Assembly (NCBI RefSeq): GCF_008271655.1
Contig: NZ_VKKX01000011.1
Location: forward strand, 620,001-684,000
From: Gemmobacter caeruleus
Lineage (GTDB): Bacteria; Pseudomonadota; Alphaproteobacteria; Rhodobacterales; Rhodobacteraceae
Direction: 5' to 3'
DNA: 64,000 nucleotides
Part shown: positions 25,076 to 54,868 of the stretch, one piece after another
How the letters are laid out: every line of letters begins with the position of its first letter
Position numbering within the stretch: position 1 is the stretch's first letter
The notes under the pieces: generated by a model
Database searches by the model: none
What the model saw: only the letters and a program-made list of their open reading frames with translations
Told to the model about the DNA's origin: nothing
Made by a program: the position numbers and the translations under genes

Positions 25076-25150
25076 TGGAGCGGGCGATGAGATTCGAACT
25101 CACGACCCTAACCTTGGCAAGGTTATGCTCTACCCCTGAGCTACGCCCGC
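25076..25150 (-). tRNA. tRNA-Gly (GCC)
   Basis: Read leftwards: acceptor GCGGGCG/CGCCCGC, D arm GCTCAGGGGTAGAGC, anticodon loop CTTGCCAAG with anticodon GCC (glycine), T arm GTGAG-TTCGAAT-CTCAT and encoded CCA. Length is 75 bases. It is the downstream copy of a tandem pair. Confidence 0.97.
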
Positions 25151-25168
25151 GCTACAATCGGTCCGAAC

Positions 25169-25243
25169 TGGAGCGGGCGATGAGATTCGAACTCACGACC
25201 CTAACCTTGGCAAGGTTATGCTCTACCCCTGAGCTACGCCCGC
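25169..25243 (-). tRNA. tRNA-Gly (GCC), second identical copy
   Basis: The sequence is identical to the neighbouring tRNA-Gly through all 75 bases including CCA, and the two are separated by 18 bases, so they form one transcript ending at the terminator at 25043. It is the promoter-proximal copy. Confidence 0.97.
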
Positions 25244-43507: not shown

Positions 43508-44545
43508 TCAGACGCTTTCGCCGATATGTATCTCGGGCAGCAGGAAGATCTCGCCGAAATCGGCATTGTCCTGCACCAGCCGGGCCATCTGGCCGAACAA
43601 CTGGCGGCAGAGCCGTTCCAGCGGGGTGTCGGTGACCATGGTGACGAGGCCATCCGCCAGCCCGCGCCGCGATTCGGGGGTGAGGGCCGAGACCACCAGC
43701 GAAACCGCGCTAGGGTCGCGATGCGCACGCAGGGCGGCGATCGCGCCCTCCATCCCGCCGCCGGCGACATAGATGCCGCGCAGGTCGGGGTGGCGCGCGA
43801 GCGCCACGCGCACCGCATCCTGCGTCAACTGCCGGGTTTCGAGATTGACGAAGGTGGGCAGCACCTCCAGCCCAGGGGCGATCTCGCGCAGGTAGCTGCG
43901 AAAGCCCGCCTCGCGCAGTTCGTGGCCATGCCAGCGATGACCGCCCACCACCAGCATGACCTTGCCCTGTGCGGCGCCAGTGGCGCGGGCGGAAAGCGCG
44001 GTGATCCAGCCGGCACTGCGCCCGATCTTGAGGTTGTCGAGGCCGAGATAGCCGGCGCGCAGCCCGAGGGCAAAGTCCGAGAGCAGGGCGATGACCGGCA
44101 GGCCGGTGCCGCGCAATTCCTCCACCGCGGCGGTGATTTCGGGGTGGTTGACCGCTGTCGCGGCCAGCACATCGCAGCGCCCGGCCATTGCGCGCAGGCT
44201 GGCGGCCATGTCGGAGGGAGCCTGCGAGGCCGAAAACTCCAGCACCAGTTCGCCGCGCAGGCCCGGTATCTCGGCGATGGCGCGTTCCAGTTCCTGCGCG
44301 AAGGCGCGGTAGAAATCCTGGCCCTGCTTGTGCAGCACGACGCCAAAGCGCAGCGTGCGGCCGGGGGCGGGGCCGCTGCCGTGCAATCGCCAGGCGGCGG
44401 GGTGGCCGATGCGCTGCGCGGCCTCGGCGATGCGGGTGCGGGTATCGGCGGCGACCTGTTCGCGCCCGTTCAGCGCGCGGTCCACTGTGGCGACCGACAC
44501 GCCTGCCGCCGCCGCCAATGCCGCCATGCCGGGCCGTCTGGCCAT
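43508..44545 (-). CDS. LacI-family transcriptional regulator
   Basis: A 345-residue regulator. The N-terminal helix-turn-helix (about 5-50) reads MAALAAAAGVSVATVDRALNGREQVAADTRTRIAEAA, with the hinge helix after it. The effector domain (about 65-345) is a periplasmic-binding-protein type 1 fold (LRFGVVLHKQGQDFYRAFAQELERAI ... LPVIALLSDFALGLRAGYLGLDNLKIGRSAGWI) like sugar or inositol-responsive members. Start at MARRPG after a frame that stays open 21 codons further. It diverges from the desaturase operon and precedes the TIM-barrel gene; both control regions contain GGAATG-type sites. Confidence 0.9.
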   Translation of the reverse strand: MARRPGMAALAAAAGVSVATVDRALNGREQVAADTRTRIAEAAQRIGHPAAWRLHGSGPAPGRTLRFGVVLHKQGQDFYRAFAQELERAIAEIPGLRGELVLEFSASQAPSDMAASLRAMAGRCDVLAATAVNHPEITAAVEELRGTGLPVIALLSDFALGLRAGYLGLDNLKIGRSAGWITALSARATGAAQGKVMLVVGGHRWHGHELREAGFRSYLREIAPGLEVLPTFVNLETRQLTQDAVRVALARHPDLRGIYVAGGGMEGAIAALRAHRDPSAVSLVVSALTPESRRGLADGLVTMVTDTPLERLCRQLFGQMARLVQDNADFGEIFLLPEIHIGESV

Positions 44546-44611
44546 GGTCGCCCCCTTTTGCCTGATGACGAGATTTGATGAAAATACGGCATCGCCGTCT
44601 TTCGCCATGAT

Positions 44612-44625
44612 GGAATGTGTATTCT
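44612..44625. promoter_or_regulatory. Operator-like palindrome, site B
   Basis: GGAATGTGTATTCT lies midway in the 130-base divergent region between the LacI-type gene and the desaturase gene, followed by ATTTTCG. It matches site A (43444) in nine or ten of the outer positions. Both outward genes could be repressed from here. Confidence 0.55.
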
Positions 44626-44675
44626 ATTTTCGTCAAGACCCCGGATGCGATCCCACCGGGTCAGGGAGGACGAGG

Positions 44676-45767
44676 ATGACGAAACGCGATTACAGCCTGT
44701 TGGGGCCGGATGGCGCCCGCGCGGTGGAGACCGGCCTTGCCGCCGCCGAATGGTATCATACCGAGGTGCCGCGCAAGGTGATGAAGGATCTGATGCAGCG
44801 ATCCGACCAGCCGGCGATCCGCGACACGGTGATCTGGCTGGGCAGCATGGTGGTGCTGGCGGGGATCGGCATCGCGCTCTGGCCTTCGGTCTGGTCGGTG
44901 CCGTTCTGGCTGGCCTATGGAGTGCTCTATGGCTCCGCCTCGGATTCGCGCTGGCATGAATGCAGCCATGGCACCGCCTTCAAGACGCCCTGGATGAACA
45001 ACGCGGTCTATGAAATCGCGTCCTTCATGATGATGCGCAATTCGGCGACCTGGCGCTGGAGCCATGCCCGCCACCATACCGACACCTATATCGTCGGGCG
45101 CGACCCGGAAATCGCGGTGATGCGCCCGCCGGCCTTTGCAAAGCTGGTGCTGAATTTCTTTGGGGTGTTCGATGTGCTGGCGGCGCTGCCGCGCATGGTG
45201 GTGAACGCGGTCTCGGGCCCCACGGCCGAGGAGCGCAGCTTCGTGCCGCAAAGCGAATGGGCAAAGGTCACGCGCGTCGCGCGGATCTATGTGGCGATCT
45301 ATCTGGCGACGCTGGCGCTGGCGCTGTGGATGGGGTCGATCCTGCCGCTGATGGTCATCGGCCTGCCGCGGCTTTATGGCGCCTGGCACCATGTGATGAC
45401 CGGGCTCTTGCAGCATGGCGGCTTGGCCGACAACGTGATCGACCACCGGCTGAACAGCCGCACGGTCTATATGAACCCGGTCAGCCGCTTCATCTACTGG
45501 AACATGAATTACCATGTGGAACATCACATGTTCCCGATGGTGCCCTATCATGCGCTGCCGCGCCTGCATGCGGTGATCCGGCATGACCTGCCGGCGCCCA
45601 ACCGCTCCATCCCCGCGGCCTTTGCCGAGATGTGGCCGGCGCTGCGGCGCCAGCTGGTCTATGAGGATTTCTTTCTGAAGCGCGACTTGCCCGCCACCGC
45701 TAAACCCTATCGCGAGGATTTTCACCGCGCCGCCCTGGGCGACGCCGCCGTAACCCCTGCCGCATGA
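44676..45767 (+). CDS. Fatty-acid-desaturase-fold oxygenase, MocD-like
   Basis: A 363-residue membrane di-iron enzyme. Three histidine boxes are present: HECSH (94-98), HARHH (130-134) and HVEHH (280-284), with four hydrophobic helices in pairs between them (about 52-88 and 203-232). The fold covers desaturases and alkane-type hydroxylases. A Rieske ferredoxin follows 10 bases downstream, the arrangement known from MocD-MocE of rhizopine catabolism. An oxidative demethylase or hydroxylase on a methylated inositol-like compound is therefore an alternative to lipid desaturation. The ribosome site is AGGGAGGACGAGG. Confidence 0.9.
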   Translation: MTKRDYSLLGPDGARAVETGLAAAEWYHTEVPRKVMKDLMQRSDQPAIRDTVIWLGSMVVLAGIGIALWPSVWSVPFWLAYGVLYGSASDSRWHECSHGTAFKTPWMNNAVYEIASFMMMRNSATWRWSHARHHTDTYIVGRDPEIAVMRPPAFAKLVLNFFGVFDVLAALPRMVVNAVSGPTAEERSFVPQSEWAKVTRVARIYVAIYLATLALALWMGSILPLMVIGLPRLYGAWHHVMTGLLQHGGLADNVIDHRLNSRTVYMNPVSRFIYWNMNYHVEHHMFPMVPYHALPRLHAVIRHDLPAPNRSIPAAFAEMWPALRRQLVYEDFFLKRDLPATAKPYREDFHRAALGDAAVTPAA

Positions 45768-45777
45768 GGAAAGTGAC

Positions 45778-46095
45778 ATGACCGACTGGATTCGCGCCTG
45801 CGCCACCGACGATATCGACGCCGAGGACCTGATCCGCTTTGACCACGGATCGCAGACCTTTGCGATCTATCATTCGCCCGAGGGCGATTTCTACGCCACC
45901 GCCGGGCGCTGCACGCATGAGGATGTGCATCTGTGCGACGGGCTGGTGATGGGTCATCTGATCGAATGCCCCAAACATAATGGCCAGTTCGATTACCGCA
46001 CCGGCGAGGCGAAACGCGCCCCCGTCTGTGTGAACCTGCGCACCTATCCGATCAAGGTCGAAGGCGGCGAGGTCTTTATCGGTATCAGCGGCTAG
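45778..46095 (+). CDS. Rieske [2Fe-2S] ferredoxin, MocE-like
   Basis: A 105-residue single-domain Rieske protein. The cluster ligands are Cys45 and His47 (RCTHED) and Cys64 and His67 (ECPKHNGQF). It should pass electrons to the adjacent di-iron oxygenase. No ferredoxin reductase (MocF-like) lies in the window. It ends on CTAG, which is shared with the stop of the convergent solute-binding-protein gene. Confidence 0.93.
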   Translation: MTDWIRACATDDIDAEDLIRFDHGSQTFAIYHSPEGDFYATAGRCTHEDVHLCDGLVMGHLIECPKHNGQFDYRTGEAKRAPVCVNLRTYPIKVEGGEVFIGISG

Positions 46096-47138
46096 GGCTG
46101 GATCATCGCGCCGCGCCATTCGTTCATCGTATCGGTGCGGCGCAGCTGGTCGCCATAGACCAGCAGCCCCGCATCCAGCCGGATCGGCCGCAAGTTGGGC
46201 GCGGGTGCCGGCCCCGCGCCGGGGATCAGCGCCGCCCCCGACAGTTCCGCCAGTTGCCGCTGCGCCTCGGGTGACAGCAGATGCGACAGGAGCGCGGTGC
46301 CGCCATCGGGGTTGGGCGCCTGCACCGGCACGAAGGCCGATCGCACGATGGCCAGGGTGTAATCCTCGAAGCTCAGCTTCACCAGATCGGGGTCGTCGGG
46401 GGCAAAGCGGGCGGTGTAGCTGGCCACGACGTTATAGGCGATCGACACGCGCCCCTCGCGCAATTCGCGGATCATCTCGCCCGAACAGCAGAACACCCGG
46501 GCATTGAGCCGCCCCATCACCTCGGCCAGCCGCCAGAAGCCTTCGGATTGCTGGGCATCCTGCGAAATCAGGAAATAGCCCACGCCCGATGTGGCCGGGT
46601 CATAGGTGGCGACGCGGCCGTCAAAGCGGGCGGGGTCGTCGCGCAGCATGGCGATCAGGTCGCGGCGCGACCGGGGCAGGGGGGTATCGCCCAGCACCCG
46701 CCGCGAGGCCAGCGTCACCACCGGCTCCAGTGCCACGCCGAACAGCTGGTCGCGCCAGCGCGCCCAGGCGGGCAGGCCGGTCGCATCGGGGGTGACACCG
46801 GCGGCCAGACCGTCATTGACCAGCCGCATCTGCAAATCCATGGCCGAGGACATGACCAGATCGAAGGGGGCGCCCTCGGTGCCGATGGCGCGAAAGGTCT
46901 CAAGGCTGGCGGCCTGCACATAGCGGATGCGCTGCCAGGGGTGGCGCGCGGCATAGCTTTCCAGCACGCCCGCGATGGCCGCGACATCGGTGGTGGAGAG
47001 GACGGCGATTTCCTCGGGCGCGTCGGCGGGGCCGAAGACCCGCTCCAGCTCCATCTCGAAGCCCAGGGCCGGGCCGGCCAGCATGAGCGCCAGCAGGCCG
47101 CCGATCAATCGGCGCGCGGCAAGATGAGCGTGGCGCAT
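46092..47138 (-). CDS. Periplasmic solute-binding protein linked to TctDE
   Basis: A 348-residue exported binding protein (family 1, like Fe(III)/polyamine types). Residues 1-26 are a signal peptide (GPALG). Two lobes follow, with conserved runs such as FDLVMSSAMDLQMRLVNDGLA and GVGYFLISQDAQQSEGFW. It has no permease or ATPase next to it. Instead the gene overlaps the tctE-type sensor kinase by 34 bases, with GGAGGGGGGCAC as its ribosome site. A role as periplasmic ligand receptor for the kinase is inferred. Confidence 0.85.
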   Translation of the reverse strand: MRHAHLAARRLIGGLLALMLAGPALGFEMELERVFGPADAPEEIAVLSTTDVAAIAGVLESYAARHPWQRIRYVQAASLETFRAIGTEGAPFDLVMSSAMDLQMRLVNDGLAAGVTPDATGLPAWARWRDQLFGVALEPVVTLASRRVLGDTPLPRSRRDLIAMLRDDPARFDGRVATYDPATSGVGYFLISQDAQQSEGFWRLAEVMGRLNARVFCCSGEMIRELREGRVSIAYNVVASYTARFAPDDPDLVKLSFEDYTLAIVRSAFVPVQAPNPDGGTALLSHLLSPEAQRQLAELSGAALIPGAGPAPAPNLRPIRLDAGLLVYGDQLRRTDTMNEWRGAMIQP

Positions 47139-48487
47139 GTGCCCCCCTCCTTTCCCGGTTCCAGGGTGAAGCGCCCGCCATGGGCGAGGGCGACCTCTGA
47201 CACGATGGTCAGGCCCAGGCCCGACCCCACCACATCGCCGGCATTCGACCCGCGGCGGAACCGTTCGGTCAGATCGCCCGCATCGGCAGGCAGGCCCCGG
47301 CCCTGATCGCAGATGCTCAGCCGGGTCTCGTCGGTCTGGCTCAGGCGCAGGGTCACGGTGCTGTCGGGGTCGGAATATTTCAGCGCATTGTCCAGCAGGT
47401 TGCGCAGCGCCACCTCGATCATGCGGGCGTCGCCGGTCAGCGGGCAGGGTGTTTCCAGCCCCTCGGCGCGCAGGCCGATCTCGCGCATTTCCGCCACCGG
47501 GGTAATGTCGCGCAACGCGCCCGCCGCCAGGGCGGCGAGATCGAAACCCGCCGCCTCGAACTGATCCGACCGATACAGCACCATCGCATGATCGAGGATC
47601 TGGCTGGCAGAGCGGCTGCTTTCGCCGATGGCACGGATCATCCGGCGCAGTCGCATGCGGGTCGCTTCGTCCTGCGCCTCGGAGAGCGCGAGTTCCGCCT
47701 CGGTGCGCACCAGCGACAGGGGGGTGCGGATGCGATGCGCGGCCTCGAAGATGAAGGTCTCGGCCAGTTGCAGCGACAGCCGCAGCCGCGCGATGAAGCC
47801 GTTGAGCGCGCGCAGCAGCGGCGACAATTCGCGCGGGGCAGGGTGACGCACCGGGCGCAGATCATGCGGGCCGCGCCGCGACACCGCCTCTGTCAGCAAT
47901 TCGACCGGGCGCAGCACATTGCGGACCGACAGCATGGCCAGCGGCAGCGCCAGCACCAGAAAGCCCAGGCCCAGCCAGGCGGCGTTGCGCGCGGTATGGC
48001 GGGCGATCTCGGCCTGGCCAAAGCGGGTCTGGCCCAGCACCACCGTCACAAGCTGTGTCTGGTTTTCCACCAATGCGGAACGGGTGATCGCCGCCAGCCG
48101 CAGATCGGCGCCGCGATAGGCGGCATCGTAAAAGACGGGCGACAGGTCTTCGGGCATTTGGGGGGGCGCGGGCAGGCCCTCGTATCCGCTGAGAAAGGCA
48201 TTGCCCAGACGCAGGCTGTAGAAAATGCGTTCCTCGCCCATGGCGCCCAGGATCGAGAAGGTCGCATAGGGCAGATCCAGCACCAGCCCGTCATCGCCGC
48301 TGCGCACCCCGTCGGCGATGGAATTGACCGCCGCCGCCAGCACCGCATCCTGCGAGGCACTGGAGGCGGTCTCGGCGCTGTAGCGGACCGCGATGAACAA
48401 AAGCGCCGCCAGCAGCGCCGACAGCGCGACGATCTGCCAGATCAGCCGGTGCCGCAGCGAGGGCTGGCCGGGCCAGAGCGGGATCAT
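47105..48487 (-). CDS. tctE: Sensor histidine kinase, TctE-like
   Basis: A 460-residue inner-membrane kinase. Transmembrane helices at about residues 17-37 and 165-190 bracket a periplasmic sensor domain; a HAMP-like segment follows. The phospho-acceptor His lies in FIFEAAHRIRTPLSLVRTEAEL, the N box in RNLLDNALKYS, the G1 box in DQGRGLP and G2 in GSGLGLTI. TctE senses tricarboxylates in enterobacteria. It overlaps tctD by four bases upstream, and the binding-protein gene by 34 bases downstream. The ligand here may differ from citrate. Confidence 0.92.
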   Translation of the reverse strand: MIPLWPGQPSLRHRLIWQIVALSALLAALLFIAVRYSAETASSASQDAVLAAAVNSIADGVRSGDDGLVLDLPYATFSILGAMGEERIFYSLRLGNAFLSGYEGLPAPPQMPEDLSPVFYDAAYRGADLRLAAITRSALVENQTQLVTVVLGQTRFGQAEIARHTARNAAWLGLGFLVLALPLAMLSVRNVLRPVELLTEAVSRRGPHDLRPVRHPAPRELSPLLRALNGFIARLRLSLQLAETFIFEAAHRIRTPLSLVRTEAELALSEAQDEATRMRLRRMIRAIGESSRSASQILDHAMVLYRSDQFEAAGFDLAALAAGALRDITPVAEMREIGLRAEGLETPCPLTGDARMIEVALRNLLDNALKYSDPDSTVTLRLSQTDETRLSICDQGRGLPADAGDLTERFRRGSNAGDVVGSGLGLTIVSEVALAHGGRFTLEPGKEGGTCATLILPRAD

Positions 48488-49149
48488 TCGGGAAAGAACC
48501 TGTAGCCGACACCGCGGAGCGTCTCGAGCCGCGCGCCCGATCCTTCCAGCTTGCGGCGCAGCCGGCCGACATAGACCTCGATCGCGTTGTCGCTGACCAT
48601 TTCGTCAAAGGAAAACAGCCGGTCGATCAGATGCGCCTTGGAATAGGCCTGACCGGGACGGCTGAGCAGGATTTCCAGCAGACGCAATTCGCGGGCGCGC
48701 AATTCGCGCGTCTCGTCGCCCACGGTGATGGTGGCGCCCAGCGGATCATAGGTGAAACCGGCAAAGCGGCGCAGGCTGTCGGCGGCGCCGGCATGGCGGC
48801 GCAGCACGGCGCGGCAGCGCGCCAGCAATTCGGCAAAGTCGAAGGGTTTGACGATGTAGTCATCGGCGCCGCGATCCAGCGTGGTCACGCGGTCATTCAC
48901 CGAGGCGCTGGCCGTCATCATGATCACCGGAACGCTGCCGCCCGCCGCCCGGTCCTGCGCCAGAAAATCGCGTCCGTCGCCATCGGGCATCGAGATATCG
49001 AGCAGAATCAGGTCATAGGGGGCCGCGCGCAGCAGATCGCGCGCATCGGCCAGCGTGGCGGCCCGGTCCACGCCATGCCCCTCAAGCGCCAGCCGCGACG
49101 CGACGGCTTGGGCCAGTTCGTCGGTATCTTCGACCAGCAGGAATCGCAT
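48484..49149 (-). CDS. tctD: Response regulator, TctD-like
   Basis: A 221-residue OmpR/PhoB-type regulator. The receiver has the phospho-acceptor Asp51 in LILLDISMPDGDG, Asp8 and Lys in VKPFDF. The winged helix C-terminal domain (about 125-221) reads RELRLLEILLSRPGQAYSKAHLIDRLF ... YVGRLRRKLEGSGARLETLRGVGYRF. It should activate the divergent tctCBA operon. It is the first gene of the leftward tctD-tctE-binding protein operon. Confidence 0.94.
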   Translation of the reverse strand: MRFLLVEDTDELAQAVASRLALEGHGVDRAATLADARDLLRAAPYDLILLDISMPDGDGRDFLAQDRAAGGSVPVIMMTASASVNDRVTTLDRGADDYIVKPFDFAELLARCRAVLRRHAGAADSLRRFAGFTYDPLGATITVGDETRELRARELRLLEILLSRPGQAYSKAHLIDRLFSFDEMVSDNAIEVYVGRLRRKLEGSGARLETLRGVGYRFFPE

Positions 49150-49172
49150 TTGACCGGATTTTCGGCAGTGGA

Positions 49173-49188
49173 TGACAGGTTCGTGTCA
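49173..49188. promoter_or_regulatory. Inverted repeat between tctD and tctC
   Basis: TGACA-N6-TGTCA lies in the 106-base gap between the divergent tctD and tctC start codons. Its position fits an operator for TctD-type activation of tctCBA, but a PhoB-type direct repeat is not obvious. Confidence 0.4.
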
Positions 49189-49255
49189 GCTTTTCAGCAA
49201 AGTGTGTTTTCCGCAAGCCTGCGCTGCGGCGCGAATAACCGTCTGGGAGGACAAC

Positions 49256-50215
49256 ATGAAAATCTGGACCCGTGCGACCCTTGCCGCACTTCTGATGGGG
49301 GCTGCGGCGCCGGCCATGGCCGAGGAATGCATCGCCCCCGCCAACCCCGGCGGCGGCTGGGATTTCACCTGCCGCCAGATCGGCCGCATCATGACCGAAC
49401 TGGGCATCACGCCCAATCTGGTGCAGGTCACCAACCTCGCGGGCGCCGGCGGCGGCGTGGCTTTCACGCAGATCGTGGCCGACCGCAACGAGGATGCCGA
49501 AGTGTTCGTGGCCGCCTCTTCGGCCACCACGACGCGCCTGGCGCAGAACGCCTTTGCCGGCGCCAGCGCCGACCAGGTGCGCTGGGTGGGCACGATCGGC
49601 GGTGATCCGGGCGTCATCGTGGTCGCGAAGGATTCGCCCTTCCAGAACCTGAACGATCTGGTCGCGGCGGTGAAGGCCGACCCGACCAAGGTGACCTTTG
49701 CCGGCGGTTCGGCCGTGGGCGGGTTTGACCACCTGAAAGTCCTGATGACCATGGACAAGGCCGGGTTCGAAGACGCCCGCGCGGTCAAGTATATCGGTCT
49801 CGATGGCGGCGCCGATGCGATCACCCAGACGGTTGGCGGCTTTACCCAGGCCATGACGGGCGACCTGTCCGAGGTCACCGGCTTCATCAAGTCGGGCGAT
49901 GTGCGCGCGGTGGCCGTGCTGTCGGATGCCCGCGTGCCGGGCTTTGACGACGTGCCGACCGCCAAGGAACAGGGCGTCGATATCGTCGCGATGAACTGGC
50001 GCGGCATCTATGTGCCCAAGGGGATCAGCGATGACGCCTATGCCAAATGGGTCGATACGCTGAAGAAGGTCGGCGAAAGCGAGCAGTGGAAGACCGTGAT
50101 GGCCGAAAACGGCCTGGCCCCCTACACCGTGCTGGGCGCCGATTTCGAAACCTTCGTGACCGAGAACATCGCCCAGATCCAGGAGATCTCGAAAGAGATC
50201 GGGCTGCTGCAATAA
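49256..50215 (+). CDS. tctC: Tripartite tricarboxylate transporter binding protein TctC
   Basis: A 319-residue periplasmic binding protein of the TTT (Bug) family. Residues 1-22 are a signal peptide (APAMA). CIAPANPGGGWDFTCRQIGRIM and VTNLAGAGGGVAFTQ are the two loops that hold carboxylates through main-chain contacts; KYIGLDGGADAITQTVGG is also typical. A strong GGGAGGACAAC ribosome site and the tctD-side repeat precede it. It heads the operon tctCBA and further genes. Confidence 0.94.
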   Translation: MKIWTRATLAALLMGAAAPAMAEECIAPANPGGGWDFTCRQIGRIMTELGITPNLVQVTNLAGAGGGVAFTQIVADRNEDAEVFVAASSATTTRLAQNAFAGASADQVRWVGTIGGDPGVIVVAKDSPFQNLNDLVAAVKADPTKVTFAGGSAVGGFDHLKVLMTMDKAGFEDARAVKYIGLDGGADAITQTVGGFTQAMTGDLSEVTGFIKSGDVRAVAVLSDARVPGFDDVPTAKEQGVDIVAMNWRGIYVPKGISDDAYAKWVDTLKKVGESEQWKTVMAENGLAPYTVLGADFETFVTENIAQIQEISKEIGLLQ

Positions 50216-50655
50216 TGCGCGGCGACCGTATCTTCGGTCTGGTCATCATCGTTGTGGCGCTGGGGTATATCCTCAGCGCCCACGGCATCGAGACCAGCTT
50301 CATGTCCGATCCCGTCGGCCCGCGGATCTTTCCCTATATGATCGCGGGCGTGATGATCCTGTGTTCGCTGGTCATGGTGCTGAAACCCGACCCGGATGCG
50401 GACTGGCCCAGTGGCGCGGTGCTGGGGCAGCTTGCCCTCGCGCTGGTCATGCTGCTGGCCTATGCCTTTCTCATCACGCCGCTGGGCTTCATCCTGCCTA
50501 CCATCCTGGTTGCCGGGGTGCTGAGCTGGCAGATCAGCGGCCGCCCCGTGCCCGCCGCCCTGACCGGGCTGGGCCTGGGGATCGGCCTTTTCGTGCTGTT
50601 CCGCATCATTCTGGGGCTGGGGCTGCGCGGCCTGCCCGCCGGCTGGGGGTTCTGA
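50215..50655 (+). CDS. tctB: Tripartite tricarboxylate transporter small subunit TctB
   Basis: A 146-residue membrane protein with four transmembrane helices (start IFGLVIIVVALGYILSA; end LGLGLRGLPAGWGF) and the FMSDPVGPRIFPY motif typical of TctB. The ATG overlaps the tctC TAA by one base. It forms the permease complex with TctA. Confidence 0.92.
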   Translation: MRGDRIFGLVIIVVALGYILSAHGIETSFMSDPVGPRIFPYMIAGVMILCSLVMVLKPDPDADWPSGAVLGQLALALVMLLAYAFLITPLGFILPTILVAGVLSWQISGRPVPAALTGLGLGIGLFVLFRIILGLGLRGLPAGWGF

Positions 50656-50658
50656 GCC

Positions 50659-52185
50659 ATGGACATTCTTTCCAATCTCGCGATGGGGTTCGAGATCGCC
50701 GCCTCGCCCTATACGCTGTTGCTGGCGGTGATCGGCGCCTTTGTCGGCACCATCATCGGCGCGCTGCCGGGCCTTGGCCCGTCGAACGGGGTGGCGCTGC
50801 TCATTCCGATTTCGTTTTCGCTGGGGCTTGATGCCATTTCGGCGCTGGTCCTGCTGACCTCGGTCTATTACGGGGCGATGTATGGCGGGCGGATCAGTTC
50901 GATCCTGCTCAATATCCCCGGCGATGAACCGGCGATGATGACCACGCTGGACGGCTATCCGATGGCGCGACAGGGCATGGCCGCCGAGGCGCTGGTCGTG
51001 TCGGGCGTGGCGTCCTTCGTGGGGTCGTTCCTGGCCACTGTCGGCCTGATGATCTTTGCGCCCTATCTGGCGGGCGTGGCCTACAAGTTCGGTCCGGCCG
51101 AATATTTCGCGCTCTATATGCTGGCCTTCTGCACGCTTGGGGGCATGGGGTCGAACAACCAGGCCAAGGCCGCGCTGGCCGCCGCCATCGGTCTGGCCAT
51201 CTCGATGATCGGGCTGGACAAGACCACGGGCATGCCGCGCTTTACCTTCGGGCAGTTGCACCTGATGGACGGGATCGACTTTCTGGTCGCCATCGTCGGT
51301 CTGTTTGCGGTGGTCGAGGTGTTCTTCTTCATCGAAAGCCATGGCAGCAACAGCGCCATCGGGGTGAAGCTGGGCAAGATCCTGATCCCGTGGAAGATGC
51401 TGAAACAGACCTCGGGCGCGATGCTGCGCGGCACGGGGATCGGCTTCATCGCGGGCGTTCTGCCGGGGGCGGGGGCTTCGCTCGGGTCGTTCCTGGCCTA
51501 TATGGGCGAAAAGTCGCTGTCGTCCGACAAGGCGAGTTTTGGCAAGGGCAATCCGCGCGGCGTGGCCGCACCCGAGGCCGGCAACAATGCCGCCGCAGGG
51601 GGGGCGCTGGTGCCGATGCTGACGCTGGGTGTGCCGGGTTCGGGCACCACGGCCGTGCTGCTGGCGCTGCTCCTCACGCTCAACATCACGCCGGGGCCGC
51701 TGCTGTTCTCCGAACGGCCCGAGGTGGTCTGGTCGCTGATCGCGGCGCTGCTGATCGCCAACGTCGTGCTGCTGCTGATGAACGTGCCGATGGTCAAGAT
51801 CTTCGTGCATATCCTGTCGGTGCCGGCCTGGATCCTGCTGCCGGGGGTCACGATGGTCGCCTTTGTGGGGATCTATTCGCTGACCGGGTCGGGCTTCGAC
51901 ATGCTCATGATGGTGGGCTTCGGCGTGCTGGGCTATGTGATGAAAAAGCTCGACATGCCGACGGTGCCGGTGATCCTGGGCATCCTGCTGGGCAATGCGA
52001 TGGAAGACAACCTGCGCCGCGCGATGGTCCTGTCGAATGGCGACTGGAAGATCCTGTTTTCCTCGCCGATCTCGATCGGGCTCTGGATCGCGGCGGTGCT
52101 GGGCTTTATTGCCCCGCTGGTGCTGCGGCGTTTCCTGAAAAAGCCGCCGCTGCCGCAGACCGATCCGATGGCGAATGAGGACTGA
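50659..52185 (+). CDS. tctA: Tripartite tricarboxylate transporter large subunit TctA
   Basis: A 508-residue permease with about twelve membrane segments. VGTIIGALPGLGPSNGVALLIPISF, YYGAMYGGRISSILLNIPGDEPAMMTTLDGYPMARQG and TLGVPGSGTTAVLLALLL are the hallmark loops. It is complete, and begins three bases after tctB. Length (about 500) is usual for the family. Confidence 0.95.
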   Translation: MDILSNLAMGFEIAASPYTLLLAVIGAFVGTIIGALPGLGPSNGVALLIPISFSLGLDAISALVLLTSVYYGAMYGGRISSILLNIPGDEPAMMTTLDGYPMARQGMAAEALVVSGVASFVGSFLATVGLMIFAPYLAGVAYKFGPAEYFALYMLAFCTLGGMGSNNQAKAALAAAIGLAISMIGLDKTTGMPRFTFGQLHLMDGIDFLVAIVGLFAVVEVFFFIESHGSNSAIGVKLGKILIPWKMLKQTSGAMLRGTGIGFIAGVLPGAGASLGSFLAYMGEKSLSSDKASFGKGNPRGVAAPEAGNNAAAGGALVPMLTLGVPGSGTTAVLLALLLTLNITPGPLLFSERPEVVWSLIAALLIANVVLLLMNVPMVKIFVHILSVPAWILLPGVTMVAFVGIYSLTGSGFDMLMMVGFGVLGYVMKKLDMPTVPVILGILLGNAMEDNLRRAMVLSNGDWKILFSSPISIGLWIAAVLGFIAPLVLRRFLKKPPLPQTDPMANED

Positions 52186-52186
52186 G

Positions 52187-53548
52187 ATGACGACGCGCGT
52201 TCTGGTGCCTTCGGGCGTGTTGGGGCTGGGTTTCGACCGCAAGGCGCTGGCGCGCGGCGTGGCCGCAAGGCCTGACATCATCTGCATCGACGGGGGGTCC
52301 ACGGATAGTGGGCCCTTCAGCCTTGGGGCGGGCGTGTCGAAATATTCGCGCGCCGCGTCCAAGGCGGAATGGCGGCTGCTGATGCAGGCGCGGGCCGACG
52401 CGGGCGTGCCGCTGGTCATCGGCACCGCCGGCACCTGCGGCACCGACAGCACGGTGGACTGGATGTTCGACATCACCGCCGAACTGGCGGCGGAGCTGGG
52501 GCAAAAGGTCAAGGTTGCGCGGCTCTATTCCAGTCAGCCCAAGGCGCGCATCGCCCAGGCGCTGGCCGAGAGCCGCATCGCCCCCCTGACACCCGCCCCC
52601 GAGATCGACCTTGACCGGCTGGGCAATATCGTGGCGCTGGCGGGGGCCGAACAGATTCAGGCGGCGCTGGCGACCGGCGCCGATATCGTCATTGCCGGGC
52701 GCACCACCGATACCGCGACCATCGCCGCATTGCCGTTGTTGCGGGGCGATCATGCCGGCGGGGTCTGGCATGGCGCCAAGATCGCGGAATGCGGCGCGCT
52801 GTGTTCCACCAACCCGACCTCGGGGGTGATCCTGGTCGATTTCGACGCGGCCGGATTCACCGTTGAGCCGCTGGCCCAAGGTGCGGCCTGCACGCCGCAT
52901 TCGGTCTCGGCGCATATGCTGTATGAAAATTCCGATCCGTTCCGCCTGTATGAACCCGGCGGCCATCTGGATGTGACCGGCGCGCGCTACACCGCAGTTG
53001 ATGCGCGCCGCGTGCGGGTCGAAGGGTCGGCCTGGGTGCCCGGCCCCTATACGGTCAAGCTGGAGGGCGCGCGGGTCGCGGGCTACCAGACCACGATTCT
53101 CGCCATTCTGCGCAATGCGCATTATGTGGCGAATGCCCGGGCCTGGGTCGATCGGCTGACCGGCTTTCTGCATGGCGAAATCGCCAGCCGCATGGGGCTG
53201 GAAAGGGACGCCTACGATCTGGAATTCCGCCTGATCGGCGTCGATGGCGCGCTTGGCCCGCTGGAAAACCGCCGGGGCGATCCGGTCGAGGTGGGCGTGC
53301 TGGGCATCGTCACCGCCCAAAGCCAGGAGATCGCGGCCGAGATCGGCAAGCTGATCAACCCCTTCGTGCTGCATTACCCGCTGACCGATGACGAGGAATT
53401 GCCGACCTTCGCCTTTCCCTATTCGCCGGCCACCACCGACCGCGGCGCGCTGTATGAATTCGCGCTGAACCACGTGATGCGGATCGACGATCCGATGGCG
53501 GCCTTCCGGCTGACCGTCACCGACCTGACCCCGGAGGGCATGGCATGA
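52187..53548 (+). CDS. AtuA-family protein (DUF1446)
   Basis: A 453-residue cytoplasmic protein of the acyclic terpene utilisation AtuA family (COG3185-type DUF1446). Conserved stretches are DIICIDGGSTDSGPFSLG, LVIGTAGTCGTDSTVDW, ADIVIAGRTTDTATIAALPLLRG and HSVSAHMLYENSDPFRLYEPGG. The biochemical reaction is not established. The ATG lies one base after the tctA stop, so it is translated with the transporter, and its end overlaps the DUF4387 gene by four bases. It is probably the catalytic subunit that acts on the imported carboxylate. Confidence 0.9.
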   Translation: MTTRVLVPSGVLGLGFDRKALARGVAARPDIICIDGGSTDSGPFSLGAGVSKYSRAASKAEWRLLMQARADAGVPLVIGTAGTCGTDSTVDWMFDITAELAAELGQKVKVARLYSSQPKARIAQALAESRIAPLTPAPEIDLDRLGNIVALAGAEQIQAALATGADIVIAGRTTDTATIAALPLLRGDHAGGVWHGAKIAECGALCSTNPTSGVILVDFDAAGFTVEPLAQGAACTPHSVSAHMLYENSDPFRLYEPGGHLDVTGARYTAVDARRVRVEGSAWVPGPYTVKLEGARVAGYQTTILAILRNAHYVANARAWVDRLTGFLHGEIASRMGLERDAYDLEFRLIGVDGALGPLENRRGDPVEVGVLGIVTAQSQEIAAEIGKLINPFVLHYPLTDDEELPTFAFPYSPATTDRGALYEFALNHVMRIDDPMAAFRLTVTDLTPEGMA

Positions 53549-53844
53549 AACTGGGCGATCTGGTGTTGAAGGTGCGGTCCAAGAATGCCGGGCCGTTCTG
53601 GGTGACCATCGACATCTTCTGCGACACGCCCGAGGCCTATGCCCGGGTGACGCAAGGATTGGCCACGGCCACGGTCGCGGGGCTGTATCAGGTGCCTGAG
53701 CAATTGCTCAAGCGCTTTGACATTCCCGATCTGCGGGTGGTGAAATTCAGCCTGCCGCGCCCGGTGATCCAGGGTTCGGCGGCGGATCGTGACATGCATG
53801 GCGCGCAATATGCGGCGCTGCTGGAAGAACATGACCTCGTCTAG
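53545..53844 (+). CDS. DUF4387 family protein
   Basis: A 99-residue protein (KLGDLVLKVRSKNAGPFWVTIDIFCD) of DUF4387, a small family whose genes often lie after AtuA-family genes or are fused to them. LVLKVRSKNAGPFWVTID is the conserved core. Translation is coupled to AtuA (ATGA overlap). It likely forms a complex with the AtuA-type protein. No activity is known. Confidence 0.88.
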   Translation: MKLGDLVLKVRSKNAGPFWVTIDIFCDTPEAYARVTQGLATATVAGLYQVPEQLLKRFDIPDLRVVKFSLPRPVIQGSAADRDMHGAQYAALLEEHDLV

Positions 53845-54868
53845 ACGCCGCGCACTGACCTTTGCGCTGGCCGCCCTGGGGGCGGCGCTCTTTCTGGTGG
53901 CGGGGCTGCCGCTGCCGTTTCTGCTGGGGCCGATGCTGGCCTGCCTGCTGGCCGCGCTGATCGGCGCCCCGCTGGCCGGCGCGGGGCAGTTCGGCATCTT
54001 CATGCGCACCTTTCTGGGGGTGGCGGTCGGATCGTCGATCACGCCCTCGGTGCTGGCCGAATTGCCCGATCTGGCGGGCTCGCTTGCCATCGTGCCGCTG
54101 TTCATCGCGGTCATCGCACTGGTCGGCTATCCGCTGTTTCGCCGGGTCTTCGGCTTTGACCACCCGACTGCCTGGTATGCCGCCATGCCCGGCGGCTTGC
54201 AGGATATGCTGGTCTTTGGCGAGGAGGCGGGCGGCGACGTGCGGGCGCTGTCGCTGATCCATGCGACGCGGGTGCTGGTCATCGTCACCGTGGCGCCGCT
54301 GATCATGACCTTCTACTGGGGCGTGGATCTGTCGCAGCCCCCCGGCGCGCCGCTGCGCGCCACCGACCCGGTCGAGGTGGGCGTCATGGTCGCGGCGGGC
54401 TTCTTTGGCTGGAAGATCGCCGAAAGAGTGGGGCTGTTCGGCGCCTCGATCCTGGGGCCGATGATCCTGACCGCGGTCCTGTCGCTGTCGGGCCTGATCA
54501 CGCACCGCCCCCCGGCCGAGATCATCCAGGCCGCGCAATTCTTCATCGGGATCGCGGTCGGGGTGAAATATGCCGGCATCACCTGGCGCGAATTGCGGGT
54601 CGATGTGTCGGCGGGGCTGGTCTATGCGCTGGTGCTGGCCGGGATCAGCCTGATCTTCATCGAACTGATCGTCTGGCTGGGGCTCGCGCCCGCGCTCGAC
54701 GCCTTTCTGGCCTATCTGCCGGGGGGGCAGGCCGAGATGGTGGTCATCGCCATCATCGCCGGTGCCGATCTGGCCTATGTCGTCAGCCACCACCTGTTGC
54801 GCATCATCATCGTCATCACCCTGTCGCCGCTGATTTCCCGCCTGTTCGACCGCCCCGGACGGCCCTAG
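53831..54868 (+). CDS. AbrB-family membrane protein
   Basis: A 345-residue inner-membrane protein with about ten helices, of the AbrB/ammonia-monooxygenase-like transporter family (COG3180). Two half-repeats with [21 protein letters not shown] and the [19 protein letters not shown] loop are typical. The ATG falls inside the DUF4387 gene (14-base overlap), so it belongs to the same operon. A transport or efflux function for the pathway product is possible but unproven. Confidence 0.88.

Follow-up and report, generated by a model that had tools for sequence, protein, structure and literature searches.

Two divergent operons comprising nine genes are described here from Gemmobacter caeruleus (Alphaproteobacteria; Rhodobacteraceae), where they lie within a stretch of 64,000 nucleotides (assembly GCF_008271655.1, contig NZ_VKKX01000011.1, positions 620,001 to 684,000), the whole of which is referred to as the window. 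The minus-strand operon (sbp-tctE-tctD) encodes a solute-binding protein (SBP), a sensor kinase, and a response regulator, and the plus-strand operon (tctC-tctB-tctA-atuA-DUF4387-abrB) encodes a transporter, the AtuA and DUF4387 proteins that are the main subject of this report, and a membrane protein (Table 1). As described in the initial annotation, which was made from the sequence alone, all nine genes are open and in place, and the plus-strand genes overlap or lie within three bases of each other (gaps of -1, 3, 1, -4, and -14 bp in order from tctC to abrB, a range of -14 to +3 bp). The minus-strand genes overlap by 34 bp (SBP/tctE) and 4 bp (tctE/tctD), tctD and tctC are separated by a divergent gap of 106 bp, and the ATG of tctC is preceded by GGGAGGA.

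Table 1. Genes and predicted operator of the two divergent operons, with positions in the window.
Feature	Position	Strand	Basis
SBP gene	46092-47138	-	SBP_bac_11/SBP_bac_6; like PDB 3c9h (E 3.3e-41) and 7f6e
tctE, sensor histidine kinase	47105-48487	-	Pfam 2CSK_N and HATPase_c; putative phospho-acceptor His251
tctD, OmpR-type response regulator	48484-49149	-	Pfam Response_reg and Trans_reg_C; putative phospho-acceptor Asp51
Predicted TctD operator TGACAGGTTCGTGTCAGCTT	49173-49192	+	Two TGWCAGSTT half-sites, 11-bp period
tctC, solute-binding protein of tripartite tricarboxylate transporter	49256-50215	+	Pfam TctC; PDB relatives
tctB, small membrane subunit	50215-50655	+	Pfam TctB
tctA, large permease subunit	50659-52185	+	Pfam TctA
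atuA, predicted large subunit of CmlAB-like lyase	52187-53548	+	Pfam AtuA; 9erq_A match
DUF4387, predicted small subunit, counterpart of AtuA ferredoxin-like domain	53545-53844	+	Pfam DUF4387; 9erq_B match
abrB, PF05145 membrane protein, accessory	53831-54868	+	Pfam/NCBIfam TIGR03082

The subunits TctC, TctB, and TctA are all present (Pfam), making up a tripartite tricarboxylate transporter (TTT), and the 2CSK_N kinase and OmpR-type regulator adjoining tctCBA constitute a TctDE two-component system; the best NCBIfam model for the regulator is TctD at 182 bits, below the equivalog cut-off of 337. The signal peptide of the SBP was judged by eye. DUF4387, the AtuA match, and TctA each occur as single copies in the genome, and no second SBP homologue was found there. 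A promoter and terminator scan gave one promoter-like match (1.2 expected) and eight terminator-like matches (4.4 expected), none of which was used. The last gene had been labelled AbrB; the gene is present, and the label is ambiguous, since the product is a PF05145/TIGR03082 membrane protein rather than the DNA-binding AbrB, which we take to belong to a different family. A role as regulator of the operon was ruled out, as PF05145 is a membrane protein and abrB lies downstream in only 19 of 53 operons of the window's own group (defined below); it is a possible secondary permease, a role that is a guess.

The earlier statement that AtuA and DUF4387 have no assigned reaction is out of date, as a complex of an AtuA-family protein with a DUF4387 protein has been deposited as a citramalate lyase (PDB entries 9erq and 9evf). 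In phmmer searches of PDB chains, the sole match to the window AtuA was 9erq_A (E 4.9e-73, full length; E up to 1 considered), and the sole match to the window DUF4387 was 9erq_B (E 2.1e-13; E up to 5 considered). The 9erq molecules are named 'Citramalate lyase, subunit A (cmlA)' and 'subunit B (cmlB)', and 9evf, released 2025-10-08, is titled 'Citramalate lyase - ADP - pyruvate complex'. Predicted structures of the window proteins (mean predicted local distance difference test (pLDDT) values of 92.7 for AtuA and 94.4 for DUF4387) share the fold of the deposited chains, with template modelling (TM) scores of 0.94/0.93 and a root-mean-square deviation of 1.9 for AtuA against 9evf_A and TM scores of 0.87/0.82 for DUF4387 against 9evf_B, and neither model had another match at E up to 0.001. 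Open literature searches found no publication on the deposited lyase or on the window operon.

The surroundings of the pair were compared in 115 loci (cited by number where needed), of which 72 were found by scanning for DUF4387 with the window protein and are biased towards the window's own group, 34 are regions from genome samples (20 from the 24 phylum-sample genomes that matched and 14 from the 15 places in relatives, the window itself left out), and nine are plasmid records hand-picked from 54 matches. DUF4387 served to fetch 106 of the loci and AtuA the other nine, neighboring genes were counted by tblastn, and group labels were taken from the AtuA tree described below, with six window-group loci, four intermediate-group loci, and one further locus placed by similarity. 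DUF4387 is patchy in distribution (24 of 397 phylum-sample genomes, and 13 of 61 genomes of relatives, among them 3 of 11 genomes of the same genus, the window's own included). An AtuA match lies beside DUF4387 in 114 of the 115 loci, the sole exception being L111, which has a DUF4387 match and no recognisable AtuA. DUF4387 is directly downstream of atuA in 111 of these 114 loci; the three exceptions are L114 (by BLAST) and L121 (by Pfam), with one long frame each, and L125, where the order is reversed. Natural one-frame fusions of AtuA and DUF4387 were identified by Pfam in L086 and L121, and L103 was rejected as a fusion because AtuA lies in another frame. Pairs were seen in Alpha-, Beta-, and Gammaproteobacteria, gut Bacillota, Bacteroidota, Actinomycetota, and one haloarchaeon. 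An AtuA match was present in 12 Klebsiella plasmid records, and on a Klebsiella plasmid (L093:5977-13311) the pair occurs with dehydrogenases and fumarase.

Gene context lends independent support to the name citramalate lyase, since AtuA proteins that match the 9erq chain at high identity (94% in L104, 94% in L097, and 92% in L089) adjoin mal in enterobacterial glutamate-fermentation clusters. The order in these three loci is glmS-glmL-glmE-mal-atuA-DUF4387-symporter-class I fumarase-cobO, except that L097 and L104 each have one additional gene, in L097 a glutaminase gene, ahead of the fumarase. In Prevotella nigrescens (L092), atuA and DUF4387 are accompanied by glutamate mutase, by mal, and by a class I fumarase in two parts. 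Citramalate would result from the combined action of glutamate mutase, methylaspartate ammonia-lyase, and mesaconase, with its cleavage as the missing last step of glutamate fermentation, which the pair beside mal and fumarase may supply in enterobacteria and Prevotella. The family now called AtuA (PF07287) is presumably the former DUF1446. The mesaconase paper describes, in clostridia, clusters whose putative citramalate lyase genes are of CitDEF type and, in enterobacteria, a DUF1446 gene downstream of mal whose function is left unexplained there (PMC4682846), and one table of iron-dependent genes lists both mal and AtuA-family genes in Prevotella intermedia (PMC10434189).

A tree of 105 AtuA proteins, built by a quick method with support from the Shimodaira-Hasegawa-like approximate likelihood ratio test (SH-aLRT) only and with several long branches flagged, separates an 87-row group containing the window protein (SH-aLRT 100) from a 9-row group containing CmlA (96), so that the window AtuA falls outside the CmlA clade; its nearest relatives, at most 85% identical, are from Paracoccus. 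Across the two groups, 54 AtuA positions are near-invariant (9/9 CmlA rows and at least 95% of the 87 window-group rows), including D35, S38, D40, R172, D175, E201, C202, H243, Y246, E247, K291, E293, and H429, and the near-invariant residues shared by the DUF4387 proteins are R11, S12, K13, G16, D23, K67, R72, and D83.

A third branch of the family is represented by the AtuA of the acyclic terpene pathway, which is listed as an acetate lyase (PMC4847356). In three plasmid records (L141, L142, and L143), a small PF23544 'AtuA_ferredoxin' protein comes after a distant AtuA that shares 25-32% identity with part of the window AtuA, with biotin-dependent carboxylase genes nearby once and a degradative 3-hydroxy-3-methylglutaryl-CoA (HMG-CoA) reductase once. 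A DUF4387 profile of 26 sequences matched the three PF23544 proteins with an hhalign probability of 96.3 (E 1.8e-9, 100 columns), and because of this profile match the two are treated as what is very likely one and the same subunit. What unites the family would be that acetate is set free at a hydroxylated branch point. The window operon was judged not to serve terpene degradation, as it has no carboxylase genes of the Atu (geranyl-CoA) pathway and its small subunit belongs to PF14330, not PF23544. In the haloarchaeon Salinigranum marinum (L143:1289-4252), AtuA and the small PF23544 protein lie directly after the degradative HMG-CoA reductase, and this pair is a candidate for an acetate lyase acting on an HMG-type substrate.

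Within the window group, tctA lies directly before atuA in 55 of the 67 loci with at least 3.2 kb upstream (77 loci in the group), bearing out the earlier view that the link between transporter and enzyme goes beyond mere proximity; of the other 12 loci, two (L069 and L070) have a similar TctA nearby, four a less similar one (35-42%), and six none. In the less biased samples, tctA is directly before atuA in 6/20 phylum regions and 10/14 regions of relatives. Among the 51 scored window-group operons with tctA, 36 consist of TctCBA and the pair, sometimes with AbrB, and nothing else. The initial annotation had asked whether TctABC always accompanies AtuA and DUF4387, and it does not: TctA was found in none of the 8 CmlA-group, 19 intermediate-group, or 10 remaining loci (6 of these 37 having less than 3.2 kb on one side). 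Other carriers lie beside the pair in other lineages, such as a CitMHS-type carrier in 10/19 intermediate-group loci (over the cut-off of the TIGR00784 citrate:proton symporter in L075) and, elsewhere, major facilitator superfamily (MFS), ATP-binding cassette (ABC), and dicarboxylate/amino acid symporter types. Class I fumarase occurs in 6/8 and mal in 4/8 CmlA-group loci. The bare operons and the variety of carriers fit an enzyme with products that can be used without additional dedicated steps, and together with the co-travelling sensor, SBP, and operator described below they support, for the window group, the original proposal that the pair acts on the compound imported by TctCBA. Two further arrangements were observed. 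In L045 (2603-9288), a CoA-transferase and a citryl-CoA lyase (over the NCBIfam cut-off) precede TctCBA-AtuA-DUF4387 in one operon, possibly placing two cleavage routes side by side. In L135 (1761-9790), AtuA-DUF4387 is followed by a PfkB kinase, a sulfoquinovose isomerase-like protein (below cut-off), a GFO/IDH oxidoreductase, and an AMP-binding enzyme. The genes upstream in L053, considered from their lengths as a CoA-transferase and CoA-lyase, proved to be SBP_bac_3 and an aminotransferase.

The sensor genes were scored in 51 window-group loci with adjacent tctA and at least 6.5 kb upstream, using identity thresholds of 45% for TctD, 35% for TctE, and 33% for the SBP. All three were present in 37 loci, none in 14, and a partial set in no locus; the binding-protein gene, initially called an orphan, is therefore not a loose neighbor, being present or absent with TctDE as one unit. 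On a careful 55-row tree the state of this unit changes about five times, with at least three changes forced by well supported branches, so that co-inheritance of its parts is not explained by a single inherited block. The sequence TGWCAGGTTNNTGTCAGSTT occurs in all 41 divergent tctD-tctC regions (the window and 40 loci, including all 37 with the full sensor unit), in 0/14 TctDE-less loci, and nowhere else among the 115 loci; it is found once in the window's own genome at up to 1 mismatch (0 for the reversed control) and in 0/8200 shuffled regions. Conservation is concentrated in these 20 columns, 16 of which are invariant versus 1 invariant column outside. Two 9-bp half-sites with an 11-bp period are typical of OmpR/PhoB-type regulators. 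On these grounds we take the 20-bp tandem repeat to be the operator to which TctD would bind, and we propose the SBP as a third component of the TctDE sensor. In Bordetella, citrate-loaded BctC, the transporter's own binding protein, also signals to the kinase (PMC5812351); in the window, it is probably the second binding protein, of a non-TctC family, that does so.

Taken as a whole, the locus is read, with a probability of roughly 0.6, as a self-contained sense-import-cleave module whose lyase releases acetate, independently of CoA, from a tertiary hydroxy-acid taken up by the cell, either citramalate or a relative. The periplasmic SBP and TctE would sense the extracellular hydroxy-acid, TctD would bind the 20-bp operator within the divergent promoter of 106 bp and switch on tctCBA-atuA-DUF4387(-abrB), and TctCBA would import the compound. 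AtuA and DUF4387 would then act as one two-subunit, CoA-independent lyase of the CmlAB type, releasing acetate from a tertiary beta-hydroxy carboxylate of the form R1R2C(OH)CH2COO- and leaving a keto product (pyruvate in the case of citramalate). No other dedicated enzyme would be needed because the products enter central metabolism directly. The use of ATP/ADP is suggested by the 9evf title (an ADP-pyruvate complex), and it is a guess that activation proceeds through an acyl phosphate rather than a thioester.

Several observations weigh against this reading. The window AtuA is about 35% identical to CmlA (34% in the structure comparison), and the citramalate lyase name of 9erq and 9evf is the depositors' designation. 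The branch between the CmlA and window groups is long (1.5, support 100), and 13 AtuA positions are fixed differently between the groups, some beside invariant ones, with Y179/P181, K254, and G262 of CmlA corresponding to T174/T176, N248, and E256 in the window and the motif GRAYDP of CmlA reading GRTTDT in the window group; E21 and Y90 of CmlB are likewise replaced by W19 and H85 in DUF4387 of the window group. None of the 77 window-group loci has class I fumarase or mal within 7 kb, and 15/51 scored operons hold further genes. Enzyme neighbors found at single loci (IlvD in L041, Iso_dh in L044, a class II aldolase in L066, and PfkB and sugar-type genes in L135) point to no one substrate, and one review gives the terpene step to LiuE rather than AtuA. 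Because of the group-specific fixed swaps, the window group, while apparently sharing the chemistry of CmlA to judge from conserved residues, possibly acts on a different substrate.

That the operon serves citramalate utilisation, with TctCBA taking up the CmlAB substrate and the pair cleaving it to pyruvate and acetate, is a narrower form of the reading above that can be held only tentatively: it draws on the homology and fold shared with CmlAB, on the near-invariant core common to both groups, and on the published statement that two carboxylic groups are present in most of the characterised TTT ligands (PMC5812351), and it is countered by the swaps next to invariant residues, the separate clade, and the missing mal and class I fumarase. 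A rather more speculative and somewhat doubtful proposal is that the window group represents a new branch of nucleotide-linked lyases that cleave C-C bonds free of CoA or acyl carrier protein (ACP), with a substrate other than citramalate (e.g., citrate, homocitrate, or 3-hydroxy-3-methylglutarate) read by a three-part sensor through the dedicated SBP, not TctC, and with TctD controlling one operator in the genome. That the enzyme is a lyase free of CoA and ACP acting on citrate or a different hydroxy-tricarboxylate, with acetate and oxaloacetate (or 2-oxoglutarate) as products, seems unlikely. The partner carriers are of citrate type (TctCBA, and the L075 CitMHS protein over its cut-off), an aconitase-family gene lies in the CitMHS-AtuA cluster of L110, and the L045 operon contains the citryl-CoA lyase and CoA-transferase mentioned above; however, the specificity of these carrier families is wide, the clue from aconitase and that from citryl-CoA lyase each rest on a single locus, and an aerobe has no need to split citrate, which enters the tricarboxylic acid (TCA) cycle. 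The substrate leads conflict, with L075, L110, and L045 suggesting citrate-like acids and IlvD, Iso_dh, class II aldolase, and sugar-type genes suggesting others.

The long branch, the swapped residues, and the diverse neighbors in some loci would also accommodate a different chemistry of the pair (e.g., hydration or isomerisation), in which case the lyase name could not be transferred to the window group, but the 54 common near-invariant AtuA positions, the same two-subunit architecture, and the acetate-lyase role that one source also lists for the terpene AtuA, which forms a third branch, make this quite improbable. It is more improbable by far that transporter and enzyme handle different compounds and are mere neighbors, as the absence of TctA beside the pair in the other groups might suggest, given how regularly tctA precedes atuA in the window group, the overlapping genes, the one divergent operator region, and the other carriers beside the pair elsewhere.

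Outside the two operons, positions 43508-46095 of the window contain a fatty-acid-desaturase-like gene (within 44328-45767) and a Rieske ferredoxin gene (45778-46095), with a LacI-type regulator (minus strand) close by; the end of the ferredoxin gene overlaps that of the SBP gene by 4 bp. This looks like a small oxygenase cluster that does not belong to the module. Two tandem tRNA-Gly (gcc) genes with equal Rfam scores lie at 25076-25243.

If the sense-import-cleave reading holds, two families annotated as unknown become parts of one enzyme with a testable reaction, the cleavage of a hydroxy-acid without CoA or a carrier protein, and a lyase working on the free acid, possibly linked to ATP, would be chemically unusual. 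To our knowledge, the known citrate, citramalate, and HMG lyases all work through thioesters. The CitDEF citrate/citramalate lyase carries out the same overall cleavage as that proposed for the window pair and works through an acyl-carrier-protein thioester; no acyl carrier subunit, CitE, or CitF was found in the window operon (open reading frame list and Pfam). The closest counterpart, CmlAB (9erq and 9evf), resembles the window pair in its AtuA and DUF4387 subunits encoded together, full-length homology, fold, and near-invariant core, and differs in being coupled to glutamate mutase, mal, and fumarase instead of TctCBA/TctDE. The acyclic terpene AtuA (PF07287 plus PF23544) likewise combines a large PF07287 part with a small ferredoxin-like part homologous to DUF4387, although its substrate is a CoA ester (PMC4847356), unlike that of the proposed window reaction. 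As far as literature searches go, the split between groups, the operator, and the strict sensor-SBP unit are new, and the operator and the never-separated SBP offer handles on the sensed compound, which would name the substrate. The citrate uptake systems TctCBA/TctDE and BctCBA/BctDE share with the window a TTT transporter and an adjacent two-component system; the window differs from both in the separate, non-TctC SBP that accompanies TctDE in all 37 loci scored and in the catabolic enzyme that follows tctA in the operon.

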